64,000 nucleotides of DNA, taken from assembly GCA_002839805.1 (NCBI GenBank), contig PGYT01000006.1, forward strand, positions 1-64,000, in the 5' to 3' direction. Made by a program: the position numbers and the translations under genes. The notes under the pieces were generated by a model. The model was given only the letters and a program-made list of their open reading frames with translations. It was not told the origin of the DNA and made no database searches. The stretch's first letter is position 1. Each line of letters opens with the position of its first letter. Source of the stretch: Ignavibacteriae bacterium HGW-Ignavibacteriae-2. Its GTDB lineage: Bacteria; Bacteroidota; Ignavibacteria; Ignavibacteriales; Melioribacteraceae. This document shows, in pieces, positions 54,545 to 64,000 of the stretch.

Positions 54545-56776
54545 TTGAACAACTTCCGATTCATCATTGTTGGTTTTTTTATACTCATTCTTTCCTTAAA
54601 GACAACTGGGCAGGGATTCGGCACTTTAAGAGGCGTTGTAGTGGATTCCACAAGTGGAGAGGCTCTCGCGTTTTGTAATGTATTTTTGGCGGAATTAAAT
54701 ACAGGCGCCAGCACGGATAACCGAGGCTATTTTCTTATAGGCAGTTTACCGGCCAGGCGTGGATACAGTTTACAAGTTTCATATATGGGCTACACGTCCC
54801 GCACAATAAAAGTAAACATATCAGACAATAAAATAACCCATCTGCAAATTAAGCTGAATCCATCCACTATACAATTACAAACAGTGGAAAAAATTGGCGA
54901 ACGAAAAATCGAACAGAATGCTACAGATATAAGCATTGAACGCATAACGATTAAAGAATTGGAAACTTTACCCAAAGGAGTTGAAGTTGATATATTCCGA
55001 TCTCTGCAATACCTGCCGGGTGTAAGGTCTACAGGTGATGTTTCGGCCCGTTATTACGTAAGAGGAGGATCGAGTAACCAGAATCTTGTTTTGTTAAACG
55101 GAGTTACAGTTTATAATCCTTTCCACGCTCTGGGAATGTTTAGCGTTATTGATCCCGAAATAATAAATAGCTTCGAGTTTTATAAAGGCGGTTTCCCTGC
55201 GGAATTCGGGGACAGGCTTTCTTCTGTTCTAAATCTGGTTTCCAAAAACGGAAACAAATATAACTATTCGGCCAAAGCCAGTACAAGTTTGCTTACAGGC
55301 AAATTGCTTGTTGAAGGACCTATTCCATCGGGCAGTTTTATAGTTTCCGGGAGAAAAAGTTATTCCACCGAAATTCTCAAAAAGTTTTTAAATGACAAAA
55401 ATGCGCCTTTCGATTTCTACGATCTGTCTTTTAAAGTAAATTTACAGACCGCCGATTTTGGAGAAGGGGCTACATTAACATTGCACGGCTTTTTGAGTAA
55501 CGATAAACTTGTTAACGATAATCCCCAAAAAGAAGATTTCCGATGGACTAATAATTTATTTGGTTTACAGTGGTTTCAGGTTTACGACGGACCTTTCTTT
55601 TCCGAATTGAATTTAGCTATCAGTAATTTTGAAGGGGAAGTGATTCCGAATTTCAGTAATTCCAGACCAAGGGAAAACACGGTGCAGGATGTATCTCTTG
55701 ATTTCGATTTTAATTACATGCTAGATACTAAAGATGAAATTAAAGTCGGACTTTTTGCCAATGGAATTAATAGCTCATTAAAACAAACCTCAGGCGGCGG
55801 CGCAAGTTCCGATATTTCAGATTTTGGAACTAAAATGGGTATGTACGCAAAATATAGATTCTTGCGATACGATAATTTCGGATTGGATATTGGGTCTCGT
55901 TTAAATGTTGTTGGAATAACAAAAGCCGGAAATTTTACTTTTGAGCCAAGAATTACTTTTACTTATAATATTCTTCCTTTTGTAACTCTTAAAGGAGCTT
56001 GGGGTTTATTCAACCAGGAGGTTACTACTTTAACAAACGAAAATGAAGTTATTTCATTATATGAACCGTGGGTAATTAATCCTGAATATATGAAACTAAG
56101 CAGAGCAACACATTATACCGCGGGAATAGATATTGATTTTGCTGATGGTCTGGTGTTAAAGTTTGAAACTTATTACAACATAATGCACAACATAGCCACA
56201 TACAACGATAGTAAAAAATATCCCGAAGATCCCGATCTAATACCCGCTACCGGCGAGTCTTATGGGGGTGAAACTATGATCCGTTATAAATCGGGACCTG
56301 TTAATATTACTGCCTCCTATGCGCTGGCGTACGCTTACAAAGAAACAGAAGACTGGCTTTATTACCCAAAATACGATTCCCGTAATACGCTTAATTTATC
56401 TTTGGAATATGATTTTGGAAACGAATGGCGAGCAAGCGCTGTTTGGTTCTACAGCACAGGCCTGCCTTTTACTCCATTGATAGGATATTACGATAAAATG
56501 CAGATTGGCAGTTATTACGAGCAGTGGTACATATACGATTCTTATTCACCTTACTCTATATTGGGGGATAAAAACATTTCCCGTTTGCCGGATTACCATC
56601 GTTTGGATATTAATTTAAGCAAAAAATTCAATATCGGCCCATTATCTCTCAGTTTTGATTTGAGTATTGTAAACGTATACGACAGAAAAAACATTTTTTA
56701 TTATAAACGCGATACCGGTGAACGCGTTAATATGCTTCCATTTTTACCAACAGGTACTATAAAAGTTGAAATATGA
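54545..56776 (+). CDS. TonB-dependent receptor with carboxypeptidase-like regulatory domain
   Basis: 743 residues. Signal peptide (about 1-23), then a CarboxypepD-regulatory-like beta-sandwich (about 25-105, GTLRGVVVDSTSGEALAFCNV), a plug domain (about 120-225, VRSTGDVSARYYVRGGSSNQNLVLLNG) and a short barrel to the end. At 743 residues it is shorter than SusC-type receptors. Start is TTG at 54545; no ATG gives an intact signal peptide. It overlaps the DUF4249 gene by 4 bases (ATGA). The neighbours point to a three-gene surface complex. Ligand unknown. Confidence 0.88.
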   Translation: MNNFRFIIVGFFILILSLKTTGQGFGTLRGVVVDSTSGEALAFCNVFLAELNTGASTDNRGYFLIGSLPARRGYSLQVSYMGYTSRTIKVNISDNKITHLQIKLNPSTIQLQTVEKIGERKIEQNATDISIERITIKELETLPKGVEVDIFRSLQYLPGVRSTGDVSARYYVRGGSSNQNLVLLNGVTVYNPFHALGMFSVIDPEIINSFEFYKGGFPAEFGDRLSSVLNLVSKNGNKYNYSAKASTSLLTGKLLVEGPIPSGSFIVSGRKSYSTEILKKFLNDKNAPFDFYDLSFKVNLQTADFGEGATLTLHGFLSNDKLVNDNPQKEDFRWTNNLFGLQWFQVYDGPFFSELNLAISNFEGEVIPNFSNSRPRENTVQDVSLDFDFNYMLDTKDEIKVGLFANGINSSLKQTSGGGASSDISDFGTKMGMYAKYRFLRYDNFGLDIGSRLNVVGITKAGNFTFEPRITFTYNILPFVTLKGAWGLFNQEVTTLTNENEVISLYEPWVINPEYMKLSRATHYTAGIDIDFADGLVLKFETYYNIMHNIATYNDSKKYPEDPDLIPATGESYGGETMIRYKSGPVNITASYALAYAYKETEDWLYYPKYDSRNTLNLSLEYDFGNEWRASAVWFYSTGLPFTPLIGYYDKMQIGSYYEQWYIYDSYSPYSILGDKNISRLPDYHRLDINLSKKFNIGPLSLSFDLSIVNVYDRKNIFYYKRDTGERVNMLPFLPTGTIKVEI

Positions 56777-57732
56777 AAAATACATTTATATCGGCGGCCA
56801 TTTTAAGTTTATTGTTTATTTCCTGTAAGGAAGATTTTAATCCGCTAGGCGAGTATTCCGAAAGGTATTCGCTTAATTGTGTAATTAAAGTTGATACAAG
56901 TTTTCAGGTGGCAACAGTAACACAAAGTTATCTGGGACAAACAACCGATCCATTTGAAAACACACAAGACCCATTTGTTGATTTTGTATATATACGTATG
57001 TGGTACAAGGGCGAAGTTTATATTTTTAATGATAGCAGCATAACCAGAACCGACAAGTCCCGATACAATACAGATATAAAATTTTATTATATCAATAATC
57101 TAAATCCACAACCAGGAAATGATCTCGAAATTGAGGCGTTATTGCCAAACGGGCGAAGATTAAAATCTGTTACCCGTATTCCAGCGAGAGCAAGTAAAAA
57201 ATACGGCAGTTTCGAAAATAAAATTCCTCCCGAGATTGGTGATATAATGCATCTTCAATGGACGAGTGATGAAACAAATTTAGTATATCACCCCAGGTTA
57301 TATATAATTTATAATAAAACAGAGAATGGTGTACAGTATCGTAAAAGTGTACCGGTCCCACTGGAGTATTATAAAAAAGGGGGAGAGGAAATTCCTATTT
57401 ATCCTAATCCTTCAGCAACACCTTATGTAAACATTAAAATGGAAACGATTAATAAATTGATGAAAAGTATTTCTGATGGTGATGAGGAAAAGAGGCATTA
57501 TGAATTTATGTACTGTATTCTGGAAGTTATCACTTACGATAAAAATCTTTCACTGTATAATTCTTCTTCCAATACTGTGCTTGATGATTATTCTATAAAA
57601 CTGGATGAAACTGATTATACAAATATTACAGGTGGATTCGGAGTCTTTGGTTCACTTGTTAAATCCACATTTATTATAAAGTTCAATACTCCTTATCTCG
57701 AAAGTTTCGGCTATAGGAATGGGTTTGAGTGA
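56773..57732 (+). CDS. DUF4249 lipoprotein
   Basis: 319 residues. Lipobox LFISC with Cys18, then the DUF4249 pattern: NCVIKVDTSFQVATVTQSY, VDFVYIRMWYKGEVYIFND, beta-rich throughout. Proteins of this family usually sit beside TonB receptors in Bacteroidota, as here, and are thought to be outer-membrane partners of the receptor. Overlaps the receptor gene by 4 bases and the next gene by 1 base, so all three are translationally coupled. Function of the family is unknown. Confidence 0.8.
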   Translation: MKNTFISAAILSLLFISCKEDFNPLGEYSERYSLNCVIKVDTSFQVATVTQSYLGQTTDPFENTQDPFVDFVYIRMWYKGEVYIFNDSSITRTDKSRYNTDIKFYYINNLNPQPGNDLEIEALLPNGRRLKSVTRIPARASKKYGSFENKIPPEIGDIMHLQWTSDETNLVYHPRLYIIYNKTENGVQYRKSVPVPLEYYKKGGEEIPIYPNPSATPYVNIKMETINKLMKSISDGDEEKRHYEFMYCILEVITYDKNLSLYNSSSNTVLDDYSIKLDETDYTNITGGFGVFGSLVKSTFIIKFNTPYLESFGYRNGFE

Positions 57733-59213
57733 TGAAAATAGTTTATTTAAAAAAAATTACCGCTTTGTCTATAGTTGTTTTTCTTGCGCTTAATGTAGGT
57801 TGCGAAAAAGAAGTATCCACAAGCGCTCCAATTGAAGCGGTTCCTATTGGGTACCTCTTTGTAGATTCGAATCCCAAAGGCGCTGCAATTTATGAGGACG
57901 GTAAAAAATCAGGCAAGTATACACCCGATTCTTTATCATGGCTCGAAGAAAAGGAATATCAAATAACATTAAAAAAACAATATCTTAGGGATACTACACT
58001 TATTGTAAATGTTAAAGAGAACGAAAAAAACAAATTATTTATTGATTTCTATTCCAATCATAAAATGCTTAGCAGTATCAAATGTACTTCCGATCCAGCC
58101 GGATCAAAGATTAAAATTAATGATTCCTTAACTAATTTGGTTACACCATATACTTTTAAAAATCTTATTCCGGGTCAATATACTTTAACATATTTAAAAG
58201 ATAACTATCGGGACCAGATAAGAAGTGTTATTGCAGAAAGTAACAAAGAGACTTTGTTATATATGAAACTGCAGGATACATCTAAATGGCTGGATTATAA
58301 TACTAACAATTCGCCGATACCCGATAATTATCTCAACTGTATAGAAATTGACAATAACGGCACAGTCTGGATGGGAACCAGCGAAGCGGGTCTTGTTGGT
58401 TTTAAAAACGGAGAGTGGTACAGTATAAATTCTGATAACTCACCGCTTATGGAAAACTACATAACTTGTATGTCAAGAGATCAAATTAATGACATTGTTT
58501 GGATAGGCACAAATTATGGACTATATGGAAAAACCGGAGATAATTGGACTGTTTTTAACACTCGAAATTCTATTTTGGAATCTGAAGAAATTACCACCCT
58601 TACAACCGACCGCAATAATACATTGTGGGTAGGAACCAAAAACGGTTTATACAGTTATTCCGAGGGATCATGGACTCGCCATAAATCAGCACGTTATGGT
58701 GAGCCGTTCACATGGATTTCAGCTGTTGCATTCGATACAGAAAATAATATTTGGGTCGGTACTTATAAAAGAGGAATCGGCAGATCCATAAAAAATGCAT
58801 GGTGGATTTATACTAATAATTATGAAGAAGTTGTAAATCGTTCGGGCTTTATATACGCTAAATTACCAAGTAACTCAATTACCTCAGCAATTGTTGAGGT
58901 AGACGCCGGAAGAATCTGGTTTGGACATTTACCAACAACAAGTAGTTACGGCGGGGTTTCAGTTTATAATCAGGTGGTTGATAAATGGAGCTATAACGGA
59001 GTTTATATTCCTAGTCCAATGGTACAAGGTTTTTATTATGATCATTTGAAATATATTTGGATTTGTACTGACGCTGGTCTTGTTAGATGGAAAAACACTC
59101 ACAAAACATATTTCCCTGACTATAATATTAAAGCGGTCGCTGTCGATAAAAATACAAATATCGTCTGGATAGCTACTCTGGGGAATGGATTAATTAAACT
59201 AAAACAACAATAG
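57732..59213 (+). CDS. Lipoprotein with PEGA domains and a seven-bladed regulator-type propeller
   Basis: About 493 residues. Lipobox NVGC (Cys near 25). Two PEGA-like repeats follow (about 43-100, DSNPKGAAIYEDGK; about 113-180, SDPAGSKIKINDS). Then come seven repeats with the W-x-G/A-T pattern: TVWMGTSEAG, IVWIGTNYG, TLWVGTKNG, NIWVGTYKRG, RIWFGHLPT, YIWICTDAG and IVWIATLGNG, enough for a complete beta-propeller. This repeat is the one seen in sensor domains of hybrid two-component systems, but here there is no membrane helix or kinase. ATG 57732 is preferred to GTG 57729. Probably surface-exposed partner of the TonB receptor; ligand unknown. Confidence 0.8.
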   Translation: MKIVYLKKITALSIVVFLALNVGCEKEVSTSAPIEAVPIGYLFVDSNPKGAAIYEDGKKSGKYTPDSLSWLEEKEYQITLKKQYLRDTTLIVNVKENEKNKLFIDFYSNHKMLSSIKCTSDPAGSKIKINDSLTNLVTPYTFKNLIPGQYTLTYLKDNYRDQIRSVIAESNKETLLYMKLQDTSKWLDYNTNNSPIPDNYLNCIEIDNNGTVWMGTSEAGLVGFKNGEWYSINSDNSPLMENYITCMSRDQINDIVWIGTNYGLYGKTGDNWTVFNTRNSILESEEITTLTTDRNNTLWVGTKNGLYSYSEGSWTRHKSARYGEPFTWISAVAFDTENNIWVGTYKRGIGRSIKNAWWIYTNNYEEVVNRSGFIYAKLPSNSITSAIVEVDAGRIWFGHLPTTSSYGGVSVYNQVVDKWSYNGVYIPSPMVQGFYYDHLKYIWICTDAGLVRWKNTHKTYFPDYNIKAVAVDKNTNIVWIATLGNGLIKLKQQ

Positions 59214-59250: not shown

Positions 59251-60396
59251 TTAGAACACTTTCAATAAAAAGCTCATCAAAATACCCGCTGCTACTGCCG
59301 ATCCAATTACTCCCGCTACGTTTGGTCCCATTGCGTGCATAAGAAGGTGATTTGTTTTATCGTATTGTTGACCGATTACGTGAGAAACGCGAGCGCTATC
59401 GGGCACCGCAGAAACTCCCGCATTTCCAATCAGAGGATTTATCTTATTCCCTTCGGATAGGAAAACATTCATCAATTTGGTAAACAGAACACCCCCCGCT
59501 GTAGCTATCATAAATGAAAAAGCGCCCAAACCGAATATTAAAATTGACTGAGGACGTAAAAAAGTAGTTGCCTGGGTAGAAGCTCCTACTGTTAATCCAA
59601 TTAGAATAGTTACTATATCAATTAAAGATCCCTTTGCCGTATCGGCCAATCTTTTAGTCACTCCGCTCTCTTTTAGCACGTTGCCGAAGAACAGCATACC
59701 TAATAAAGGAAGTGCACTAGGAGTTATAAATGTTGTTAAAAGAAGTCCGATTATCGGGAACATTATTTTTTCCAACTTGGAAACTGCTCTTGGGGGTTTC
59801 ATTTTAATAACTCTCTCCTCCGGAGTAGTAAGCAATCTCATTATCGGCGGCTGAATTACTGGAACCAAGGCCATATAAGAATAAGCCGAAATTGCTATGG
59901 CGCCTACAAGTTCGGGAGCCAATTTAGAGGATAAAAATATAGCTGTAGGGCCGTCAGCGCCGCCTATTATCCCTATGGAAGCCGCTTGTTCGGGAGTAAA
60001 ACCAAGTGCGAGAGCGCCGGTGAAAGTTATAAATATACCAATCTGAGCCGCCGCGCCTAAAAGAATTAGTTTCGGGTTGGAGAGCAAAGTGGAAAAGTCT
60101 GTCATCGCTCCAATTCCGAGAAATATCAGCGGCGGGTATATCCCTTTTAATACACCAAAGTAAAGATAATTCATTACGCTTCCTTCTTCGTAAATTCCCA
60201 GTTGAAGCCCCGCGTTTTGAACAAAAGGAATGTTTCCGATTAGAATACCGAATCCGATTGGAACTAACAATAGGGGTTCGTAATCTTTAGCGATTGCCAA
60301 ATAGATAAAAATCAATCCCACGGTAATCATCACAAGATGACCTATGGTAAAATTCGCGAATCCGGTAAATTGAAAAAACTTAAAGAGACCTTCCAT
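59251..60396 (-). CDS. Sodium-translocating decarboxylase beta subunit (OadB/MmdB family)
   Basis: 381 residues, nearly all membrane. Integral subunit that couples decarboxylation of carboxybiotin to sodium export. Family motifs: PPLIFLGIGAMTDF, SIGIIGGADGPTAIFLSSKLAPEL (quoted here from its middle part GGADGPTAIF), and NAGVSAVPDSARVSH near the end. Overlaps the biotin carrier gene by 1 base. With the carboxyltransferase upstream the complex should be methylmalonyl-CoA decarboxylase. Confidence 0.93.
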   Translation of the reverse strand: MEGLFKFFQFTGFANFTIGHLVMITVGLIFIYLAIAKDYEPLLLVPIGFGILIGNIPFVQNAGLQLGIYEEGSVMNYLYFGVLKGIYPPLIFLGIGAMTDFSTLLSNPKLILLGAAAQIGIFITFTGALALGFTPEQAASIGIIGGADGPTAIFLSSKLAPELVGAIAISAYSYMALVPVIQPPIMRLLTTPEERVIKMKPPRAVSKLEKIMFPIIGLLLTTFITPSALPLLGMLFFGNVLKESGVTKRLADTAKGSLIDIVTILIGLTVGASTQATTFLRPQSILIFGLGAFSFMIATAGGVLFTKLMNVFLSEGNKINPLIGNAGVSAVPDSARVSHVIGQQYDKTNHLLMHAMGPNVAGVIGSAVAAGILMSFLLKVF

Positions 60397-60842
60397 TAAT
60401 TACCCCCGATTTCTACTAGAGTATCGCCTTCTAGAACAGAATCACCTGTTTTAACGTGAATGGATTTAATAATTCCCTCCTTATCGGATTCGATATTATT
60501 TTCCATTTTCATAGCTTCTAGTATTAAGAGTTTGTCACCTGCTTTTACATGGTCGCCCTCTTTTGCGATAATGTTAAGAATTACGCCTGGTAAAGGAGAT
60601 TTAATAAAACCGGCACCTTTGGGGGCAGTGGGTTTACTTGTTTTTATGTTGGCTTTGTCGGTTTCGTAAGTTTGAACCGCGTTTGGACGCACAAAAACTG
60701 GGGTTTTTGTAGGTTTTAAGGTTTTATCAACTTCTACGCTGTATATCGTTCCGTTTACATCTATTTCAGCTATATTTTGTTCGACGTTTAATATCTCAAC
60801 GTCGTATTTATTACCAAGTATGGTTAATTTAAATTTTTTCAT
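60396..60842 (-). CDS. Biotin carrier subunit of the sodium-pumping decarboxylase
   Basis: 148 residues. C-terminal biotinyl domain with EAMKMEN; the biotinylated residue is K112. A flexible linker with Pro, Lys and Ala (about 52-80) joins it to an N-terminal part KKFKLTILGNKYDVEI. Carries CO2 from the carboxyltransferase to the beta subunit. Start ATG 60842 is 10 bases after the gamma-subunit stop; stop overlaps the beta-subunit start. Confidence 0.9.
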   Translation of the reverse strand: MKKFKLTILGNKYDVEILNVEQNIAEIDVNGTIYSVEVDKTLKPTKTPVFVRPNAVQTYETDKANIKTSKPTAPKGAGFIKSPLPGVILNIIAKEGDHVKAGDKLLILEAMKMENNIESDKEGIIKSIHVKTGDSVLEGDTLVEIGGN

Positions 60843-60852
60843 ATTTATTCCG

Positions 60853-62151
60853 TTATTTTTGTCGTGGGTATTGTCTTAATCCATAAATCTTAGAGCTCCA
60901 AGGCGAATATGTCCTGGAAACACGATTAATCGTGAGAACCGTATTTTCAAAATCATGAGCTTCTTGAAAATAAAAATATAACGCCGTAGCTATTGCGGCG
61001 TTAACCTCTCCTGTTAAATCATCTTTCTTTTTAACGTCATCCGACTTAACATTTTTTACTTTTTTAGCGCCTGAAAACAGATCAAGAACTTTTTGCGTAT
61101 TGGAGAATACTATAAACAAAAGAATGAGTGAAGAAAACACTACAACCATACCCGCGATAGTCATTCCTATTCCGTCACCTTTTACCACAGCTTCGGGAAC
61201 AAAAGCAATCTTCTTAAAAGAATCGCCGCTTACTGGATTGTACGAAATTTTGATTTCACTGGATAAAAGTTTAGTTGAACTGTTTTCTAATATTCTGGAT
61301 TTTGGGGTCGCATCGTGCAGTTCGTAATTAAAAGCCGCTTTCCTGATCCATCCACTAATCTCGTCTATTTGTAATTTACCGTTTTGTTTCCCTCTAAGGT
61401 ATTGGTCATTTTTTTTCCTTCTGCCGATAGTTGTGGTATCTGTTGAAATTTCTGAATTAACGGAAATTACCGCAACGCCATTATTTCTTTCGAGCAGACT
61501 GTAACTGTTTTTTACATTCAGAGGGGCATAATTACTTAACTTAACAGTTTTTTCCCAGGAATCATTAATATCAACCGGATTGGATGGATAAAAAGCGAAC
61601 ATTCTTTCAAATGTTTCAAGAAGTATTTCATCGTCAAATTCATCGTATAAAGATTCTTTTATTTTAGAAAATACTTCAGGTTGAAAAATTTCCATTTCCC
61701 GTAAAATCTTTTCCAAATTGCCGTTCATGCCTTCAACTTTTTTAACTGTGCCGTCCCTAAGAACCTGCATTTTAAAAGTATTGCCGATAAGCGCGGCATA
61801 AGGTTTGGATAATATCGGGATGTCTAATGTATCTTTATTGGAGTCATATTCAATTGATCCCAAATGACCCTGCTGTGTGATTTTCAAGGAAAATATTTTT
61901 CCGTTCAGTGACACAAGTCCGTCGTTCGAAATTGAAGTTGGTTCGAACGAATAACCAACAATAAGAAGCTGATTTATATCGGAAATTTCGCCGTTCACAT
62001 CTTCATAGTTTTTAATATCGCGGGTGATTTCAATTTGATATATTTCACCCACTTTTAACCCGAATTCCAGACTGGCCTTTTCGTCGGAAATACCACAGGA
62101 AGTTATCACCGCTGCAATAAGAACCGAAAAAAGTATTTTTATAATTTTCAT
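60853..62151 (-). CDS. Fusion: lipoprotein-like N-terminal domain joined to decarboxylase gamma subunit (OadG)
   Basis: 432 residues. Residues 1-19 are a lipoprotein-like signal (lipobox ITSC, Cys19). About 25-320 form a soluble domain outside the cytoplasm, similar to DUF6263-like proteins (LKVGEIYQIEITRDIK, WEKTVKLSNYAPLNV, GKLQIDEISGWIRKA). One membrane helix follows (about 326-349, GIGMTIAGMVVVFSSLILLF), then a charged stretch and the OadG-type end (about 383-432, VNAAIATALYFYFQ, RTYSPWSSKIYGLRQYPRQK). Normal gamma subunits are about 80-140 residues and contain just the last part. Start ATG 62151 follows GGAGATAAA; an upstream start at 62172 is rejected. In the frame there is no stop or break. 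Confidence 0.82.
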   Translation of the reverse strand: MKIIKILFSVLIAAVITSCGISDEKASLEFGLKVGEIYQIEITRDIKNYEDVNGEISDINQLLIVGYSFEPTSISNDGLVSLNGKIFSLKITQQGHLGSIEYDSNKDTLDIPILSKPYAALIGNTFKMQVLRDGTVKKVEGMNGNLEKILREMEIFQPEVFSKIKESLYDEFDDEILLETFERMFAFYPSNPVDINDSWEKTVKLSNYAPLNVKNSYSLLERNNGVAVISVNSEISTDTTTIGRRKKNDQYLRGKQNGKLQIDEISGWIRKAAFNYELHDATPKSRILENSSTKLLSSEIKISYNPVSGDSFKKIAFVPEAVVKGDGIGMTIAGMVVVFSSLILLFIVFSNTQKVLDLFSGAKKVKNVKSDDVKKKDDLTGEVNAAIATALYFYFQEAHDFENTVLTINRVSRTYSPWSSKIYGLRQYPRQK

Positions 62152-62183
62152 TTTATCTCCTATAAAAAGCATTTCAACATCGA

Positions 62184-63743
62184 CTACAAAGGTATATTCG
62201 AATGTTTTTTGGGCGGATTAGTATCTTTCTTTGTTGCCAGAGATTGAAGCGCTCTTATAATTCTGAATCGTGTATTTCTTGGTTCAATAACATCATCAAT
62301 ATATCCGTATTTGGCAGCAACGTAAGGTGTTGCAAATTTATTTCTATAATCGGTTTCTTTTTCATTTATAAAATTTGCTCTTTCCGTATCATCAGTAATA
62401 CTGCTAATTTCGCGATTGTGCAGAACCTCAATTGCTCCTCGTGGTCCCATAACAGCTATCTCTGCTGAAGGCCAAGCATAATTTAAATCCCCGCGTAAAT
62501 GTTTAGAACTCATTACGTCATAAGCTCCGCCATAAGCTTTACGCAGAATTACAGTTACTTTAGGAACTGTACATTCACCATAAGCGAATAATAATTTAGC
62601 ACCGTGAATTATTATTCCACCGTATTCCTGTGCGGTACCGGGCAAGAAACCAGGAACATCAACCAAGGTAACAATTGGAATATTAAATGCATCGCAAAAT
62701 CTTACGAATCTTGCGGCTTTTCTCGAAGCATTTATATCGAGTACACCTGCAAGGTACAGAGGTTGATTTGCAACAATGCCCACAGGCATACCGTTAAATT
62801 TTGCAAATCCTACAATTATATTTGCAGCGTAATTTCTCTGAACTTCAACAAATTCGCTGTAGTCAACAATTGAATGAATAACTTCTTTTACATCATATGG
62901 TTTGTTCGGATTATCAGGAACAATTTCATTTAATCTATCTTCAAGTCTGTCTATCGGGTCATCACAAGGAGAAAGCGGAGGATCTTCCAAATTATTCTGA
63001 GGCATATAGCTAAGTAATTTTCTTATCAACAGAATACCTTCTTTTTCATCTTCAACTGCAAAATGAGATACCCCGGATTTAGAAGCGTGAACATTTGCTC
63101 CTCCCAATTCTTCATCTGTTACAGTTTCGCCCGTAACTGTTTTAACCACTTTTGGTCCAGTAACAAACATGTAAGAAGTGTTTTTTGCCATAATAGTAAA
63201 ATCTGTTAATGCGGGAGAATAAACAGCGCCGCCGGCACATGGACCGAATATCGCTGAAATTTGAGGAACAACACCCGAAGCCATAATGTTTCGCTGGAAA
63301 ATATCGGCGTATCCGCCTAAACTTTTAACTCCTTCCTGAATTCTTGCACCGCCGCTATCGTTTATACCTATTACAGGTGCGCCTACTTTCATCGCTTTGT
63401 CCATAACTTTACATATTTTCTGAGCATACATTTCGGATAAAGAACCGCCGAACACTGTAAAATCCTGCGAGAATACATAAACCAATCTGCCGTCAATTGT
63501 ACCATAACCAGTAACTACGCCGTCGGATAAATAGGTTTGTTTATCCAACCCAAAATCTACTGTTCTATGGGATACAAACATGTCGAATTCTTCAAAACTT
63601 CCTTCGTCCAATAACAATTCGATCCTTTCGCGTGCTGTAAATTTCCCTCTTTGGTGTTGCGCGTCAATTCTTTTTTGACCGCCTCCCAAACGAGCCAGCT
63701 CGCGCATGTCCATTAATTTTTTAATTTTGTCTTCTATTGCCAT
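62184..63743 (-). CDS. mmdA: Methylmalonyl-CoA (or propionyl-CoA) carboxyltransferase subunit
   Basis: 519 residues, carboxyl transferase with two halves. Acyl-CoA and biotin pockets include [40 protein letters not shown] in the first half and [31 protein letters not shown] in the second. It shifts the carboxyl group from methylmalonyl-CoA to biotin; with the beta, gamma and biotin subunits downstream and an epimerase upstream, the decarboxylase direction is favoured, giving propionyl-CoA and a sodium gradient. The same fold serves propionyl-CoA carboxylase, so direction is inferred from context. Confidence 0.92.
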
Positions 63744-63791: not shown

Positions 63792-64000
63792 TTATTCTTC
63801 GCTGCATAATTCGGTTAACACTCCATTGGTGGATTTGGGATGGAGGAATGCTATGTTTAATCCTTCCGCCCCTTTTCTCGGCACAGCGTCTATAAGTCTA
63901 ATGCCTTTTTCTTCAACCTCTTTTAAGGATTCCGGCAGATTTTTCACGCTAAAAGCCAAGTGGTGCACACCCTCACCCTTTTTTTCTAAAAATTTACCAA
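63792..64000 (-). CDS. mce: Methylmalonyl-CoA epimerase, 5' end beyond window
   Basis: C-terminal 69 codons of a vicinal-oxygen-chelate protein. Visible motifs are GEGVHHLAFSV (metal ligand His), LPESLKEVEEKGIRLID, GAEGLNIAFLHPKS and the final VLTELCSEE (metal ligand Glu). This end is typical of methylmalonyl-CoA epimerase, which converts the R and S isomers. It is followed after 48 bases by mmdA, fitting a succinate/propionate pathway. Start lies past 64000. Confidence 0.9.
   Translation of the reverse strand, partial: GKFLEKKGEGVHHLAFSVKNLPESLKEVEEKGIRLIDAVPRKGAEGLNIAFLHPKSTNGVLTELCSEE

Follow-up and report, generated by a model that had tools for sequence, protein, structure and literature searches.

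A DUF6263 lipoprotein domain fused to the predicted gamma subunit of a sodium-exporting decarboxylase in Ignavibacteriae bacterium HGW-Ignavibacteriae-2

The decarboxylase operon and the fused gene

The window analyzed here is a stretch of 64,000 nucleotides from Ignavibacteriae bacterium HGW-Ignavibacteriae-2 (contig PGYT01000006.1, positions 1 to 64,000). Near its end, a minus-strand operon contains, in this order, an epimerase-like gene, mmdA, the gene for a gamma subunit with an additional N-terminal domain, mmdC, and mmdB. The genes and the parts of the fused gene are as follows.

63792..63998, minus: 3' part of a methylmalonyl-CoA epimerase-like gene, running past the window; 71% identity to the gene upstream of mmdA in bacterium BRH_c32 (family name inferred)
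62184..63743, minus: mmdA, carboxyltransferase (alpha), methylmalonyl-CoA decarboxylase type; PF01039 4.5e-202; TIGR01117 1e-243, under the cut-off of that model
60853..62151, minus: DUF6263-OadG fusion, 432 aa, MmdD/OadG-type gamma; PF19777 and PF04277 in one open frame; end-to-end ortholog with 48% identity
62095..62151, minus: predicted signal sequence, residues 1-19, lipobox ITSC (sequence and hydropathy); VSSC at the equivalent site of the ortholog
61234..62094, minus: predicted extracytoplasmic domain, residues 20-306 (Pfam); 44% identity to the BRH_c32 copy; AF2 pLDDT 66.4; barrel Z 12-15
61345-61920, minus: DUF6263 Pfam core (PF19777 match)
61171..61233, minus: linker, residues 307-327, the joint of DUF6263 and gamma, without a frame break; 57% identity to the ortholog
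61099..61170, minus: predicted gamma transmembrane helix, residues 328-351 (hydropathy; OAD_gamma match 60979-61176)
60856..61098, minus: predicted cytoplasmic gamma tail, residues 352-432, with the conserved SPWSSKIYGLRQ end; 70% identity to the ortholog over residues 379-432
60396..60842, minus: mmdC, biotin carrier with the EAMKM biotinylation motif; PF00364 4.8e-20
59251..60396, minus: mmdB/OadB, membrane beta subunit; PF03977 9.6e-154; TIGR01109 3.8e-150; GGADGPT and NAGVSAVPDSAR

The initial annotation described an unbroken frame at 60853-62151 on the minus strand, in the expected operon slot, in which a lipobox signal and an outside domain precede a gamma part confined to the last quarter, with the topology outside-membrane-inside. 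Our analysis agreed with this description throughout. The fused gene is preceded by mmdA and followed by mmdC, for the biotin carrier, and then by the beta gene. Its frame starts with an ATG at 62151, preceded by a strong ribosome site, TATAGGAGATAAA-ATG (AGGAG), and ends with the stop at 60853; the 432 codons include zero internal stops and cross the linker without a break. The DUF6263 profile (PF19777) matched residues 78-269 (3.8e-38; 131.6 bits against a cut-off of 26.7) over positions 2-196 of 196, that is, as a full-length domain, and the OAD_gamma profile (PF04277) matched residues 326-391 (4e-10; 40.7 bits against a cut-off of 27); these positions leave only the last quarter of the protein to the gamma part. 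The fusion of BRH_c32 scored 52.4 bits with PF04277. With the stricter TIGR01195 model, the present fusion scored 20.5, under the cut-off of 36.05. The SPWSSKIYGLRQ motif of the tail was also found in standalone gamma subunits.

Only two hydrophobic stretches were detected by hydropathy, namely the signal (residues 1-19) and residues 328-351. The net charge is -9 for residues 20-327 (outside) and +5 for residues 352-432 (inside), a pattern that fits the predicted outside-membrane-inside topology with a single helix and the C-terminus inside. The lipobox I-T-S-C corresponds to residues 16-19, with the cysteine after the hydrophobic stretch, and Cys19 is expected to be the site of lipidation.

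MmdA scored 809.7 bits with TIGR01117, the cut-off of which is 998.8; the epimerase-like gene upstream of mmdA supports a putative specificity of the alpha subunit for methylmalonyl-CoA. The beta subunit retains GGADGPT and NAGVSAVPDSAR, which we take to contain the equivalents of Asp203 and Ser382, respectively. Both residues have been implicated in sodium binding in OAD (PMC7274780). A search of the host genome with the OAD_gamma profile gave a single match, the fusion gene, and the same was true of BRH_c32; no second, ordinary gamma gene was thus found in the host genome. Judging from these sequence features, the fusion is predicted to be the real gamma subunit (MmdD/OadG) of a biotin-dependent, sodium-exporting methylmalonyl-CoA decarboxylase, encoded as a single polypeptide.

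Beyond mmdB, the window has three plus-strand genes (54545-59213) between mmdB and an M1-peptidase-like gene, encoding a TonB-dependent-receptor-like protein (name inferred), a protein with a weak DUF4249 match, and a PEGA plus two-component-propeller protein. In BRH_c32 and in a congener of the host (G001), mmdB and the M1-peptidase-like gene adjoin, and the three-gene block is probably an insertion in the present genome.

Distribution and history of the fusion

By domain search, the same domain arrangement was found in 2 of 164 genomes of the host's order, those of the host and of bacterium BRH_c32 (G005; LOEU01000024.1). The BRH_c32 protein has an identical architecture and 48% end-to-end identity, and its gene occupies the identical operon slot. 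No further fusion was found in a 391-genome sample of the class or in a 395-genome sample of the phylum that did not include BRH_c32, and a scan of viral contigs found nothing. With the OadG/MmdD/GcdD gamma-delta subunits of biotin-dependent Na+-translocating decarboxylases (PF04277), the fusion shares the helix, the cytoplasmic tail, the operon slot and its place as sole gamma of the genome. The members from the host's order, however, are 119-204 aa long and have little outside the membrane, whereas the fusion has a lipoprotein domain of about 290 residues before the linker and helix. Apparent 670-aa frames at two loci (L007 and L029) proved to be standalone gammas of 149 and 128 aa, and long frames at two others (L082 and L083) were overlapping frames of other genes.

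Between the two fusions, identity is 44% in the domain, 57% in the linker, 75% in the helix and 70% in the conserved tail. With 70-75% in the helix and tail, 44% in the N-terminal domain, and no stops, both halves appear to be under selection. The fusion is real, rare, and conserved in two distantly related species.

In a tree of MmdA, MmdC and MmdB, the two fusion operons grouped together (UFBoot 100) and stood beside operons from both families of the host's order, apart from a strongly supported set containing two congeners of the host. The host's congeners have an ordinary gamma. The operon of congener G001 lies in the equivalent place, by the same genes as in the host (for an M1 peptidase, a 706-aa protein, a 198-aa protein and a kinase), and its gamma has 119 aa. 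Positions 59251-63743 of the window and the G001 locus (L106) are equivalent, and their operons belong to different strongly supported clades. Since the locus is shared and the tree sets differ, the operon differs from that of the congeners at an orthologous locus; this could have come about through in-place replacement by transfer, or through old differential loss. Most simply, the fusion of DUF6263 and gamma arose once, in the common ancestor of the host and BRH_c32 operons.

Free DUF6263 proteins and the predicted fold of the domain

Free DUF6263 proteins are common; they are lipoproteins or secreted proteins with a length of about 300-350 aa, and at the loci that we read they had no connection with decarboxylase operons. 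They share with the fused domain an extent of about 290 residues and, in many cases, a lipobox; they differ in that the chain stops shortly past the last strand, without a gamma part, and none of those read lies near a decarboxylase operon. The whole fused domain could be aligned to 18 free DUF6263-like proteins, and it corresponds to one complete free protein. No separate DUF6263 gene was seen beside the mmd operons in the loci read. In one genome (G058), matches to DUF6263 and OAD_gamma lie on one contig, about 139 kb apart. The host genome itself encodes a free DUF6263 lipoprotein (L070:6825-7853, on G000 contig C9) with about 19% identity to the fused domain; its neighbours are putative nucleoside-diphosphate-kinase-like and sucD-like genes, and the surroundings in G056 and G041 are similar. 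Our literature search found no paper on DUF6263 and hence no role for the domain.

Because the AF2 model of the full-length fusion was too poor (pLDDT 45.6), the domain was folded alone, which gave a model built from two sequences with pLDDT 66.4 and pTM 0.63. The best structural match of this model was the N-terminal barrel of lipovitellin (Z 14.7; 4.6 A over 226 residues), together with ApoB (Z 13.6), honey-bee vitellogenin (12.9) and MTP (12.3). Autotransporter barrels followed at Z about 10-12, and after them LolA-like and YmcC-like proteins at about 7-9. The predicted fold, an antiparallel barrel with helices in mid-chain, resembles the vitellogenin/ApoB/MTP N-barrel (Z 12-15 over about 220 residues, against about 7-9 for LolA/LmcA-type carriers). 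However, identity to these barrels and carriers is about 7-10% with no sequence-family match, and the likeness comes from a medium-confidence model. No Vitellogenin_N Pfam match was found in the fusion at E 1, and sequence and profile searches of the PDB gave nothing related. Since the autotransporter barrels reach Z 10-12, the match to vitellogenin may reflect only a common barrel arrangement. The resemblance of the modelled DUF6263 domain to the vitellogenin/ApoB/MTP barrel, and more weakly to LolA-like carriers, is a lead, not an assignment, and the fold likeness alone indicates no function.

Lamin tail domains fused to gamma in other Bacteroidota

In other Bacteroidota, a lamin tail domain (LTD, PF00932) is fused ahead of gamma (L078-L080 and L112-L123; coordinates include L078:885-1778, L079:1052-1987 and L080:1327-2274). 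In the order of G637, matches spanning LTD and OAD_gamma were present, by our count, in about 42 of the 149 genomes. Among 12 such genes examined, some have a lipobox (for example, LSSC in L112, FSSC in L113, FASC in L115) and others a plain signal sequence. The LTD-OadG proteins resemble the present fusion in the signal, the outside domain, the gamma helix and tail, the mmd operon slot and the fusion point, whereas their outside domain belongs to another Pfam family and their arrangement is common in its order rather than limited to two species. As the outside parts come from different Pfam families, outside domains were most likely gained more than once at one fusion point of gamma. We found no paper tying the lamin tail domain to oxaloacetate decarboxylase.

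According to the initial annotation, ordinary gammas have almost nothing outside. This holds for the host's order, with its gammas of 119-204 aa, but not for Bacteroidota overall, since LTD-OadG fusions are a common feature of one of the orders sampled; their existence weakens the contrast of the DUF6263 fusion with all other gammas. Because the gene is intact and relatives carry a different outside domain at the equivalent point, the fusion represents a recurring design in a rare form, not an error.

Possible role of the outside domain

The core of OAD is a beta3gamma3 assembly with a periplasm-facing cavity, in which the helix of gamma packs on beta; the tail of gamma lies in the cytoplasm and binds alpha (PMC7274780). 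The binding of gamma to beta and alpha, and the need for gamma in assembly, are known for other family members (PMC7274780). In the present protein, a complete DUF6263 lipoprotein has been joined ahead of the gamma transmembrane helix, and the helix presumably still binds beta and the tail alpha. If these contacts are retained and the core is beta3gamma3, the outer mouth would be surrounded by three DUF6263 barrels. Each would be tethered to the inner membrane, on its outer face, at two points, the lipidated Cys19 in front and the gamma helix behind. The barrel would then most likely serve as an accessory periplasmic module for docking or stabilisation, through contact with protein or lipid and not catalysis.

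We assign a probability of about 0.55 to this reading, in which the fusion is the gamma of a sodium-exporting decarboxylase and the barrel an accessory docking or stabilising module. The LTD-OadG proteins are in line with it, in that gammas elsewhere also bear N-terminal outside domains, and the modelled vitellogenin/LolA-like fold would be slightly more in keeping with docking or hydrophobic contact than with gating. Against it, the protein may be cleaved and the product sent elsewhere by its lipobox, and the fusion is limited to two species.

The main alternative, which we consider unlikely on balance, is that an independent DUF6263 envelope protein uses gamma as an anchor and for co-expression, with a job unconnected with the pump. 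The wide occurrence of free DUF6263 proteins away from decarboxylase operons at the loci read, and the equal extent of the fused domain and a whole free protein, are what such a passenger would lead one to expect. However, a lipoprotein has no need of a second anchor, and both genomes, on either side of a deep split, have kept the fusion in their sole gamma gene.

The initial annotation proposed that the domain might shield or gate the sodium exit, or tie the pump to envelope components. Shielding or gating, in which the barrels would cover beta at its outer mouth and affect sodium release or back-flow, is a rather improbable explanation. The predicted topology would place the domain at the exit side beside beta, in three copies per core if the core is beta3gamma3. 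Nevertheless, other pumps of the host's order have gammas of 119-204 aa without the domain, and the LTD fusions put an unrelated domain at the equivalent position, a hint that no specific fit to the channel is involved; nothing in the evidence is specific to gating.

Cleavage of the product, or an internal start, could yield an ordinary gamma together with a separate lipoprotein. The lipobox signal is present, and the ATG of residue 330, in frame and located at the start of the helix, is conserved in BRH_c32 and has an A/G-rich sequence upstream. However, a start at residue 330 would drop the residues preceding the helix, and the linker (residues 307-327) is 57% conserved, above the domain, so that we regard this possibility as very unlikely. 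The merging of two adjacent genes by misassembly or frameshift, conceivable where a fusion occurs in two genomes only and both assemblies are fragmented, has a negligible probability and in practice was already refuted by the independent BRH_c32 ortholog, which has the identical joint in the equivalent slot, between conserved neighbouring genes on a 291-kb contig; the initial annotation was right to hold that the gene is not an assembly artefact.

Implications

Gamma and delta subunits have been described as small scaffolds. The occurrence of two different outside domains at one fusion point, DUF6263 here and LTD widely elsewhere, suggests that, in Bacteroidota, decarboxylase sodium pumps have a periplasmic face that acts as a functional surface. 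It is a doubtful but conceivable extension that Bacteroidota have repeatedly made gamma a periplasmic docking platform, and that here a bacterial counterpart of the vitellogenin/ApoB/MTP barrel ties the pump to lipid or envelope traffic. The fusion also offers a first handle on DUF6263, and if the barrel fold holds family-wide, this DUF family would gain a fold.
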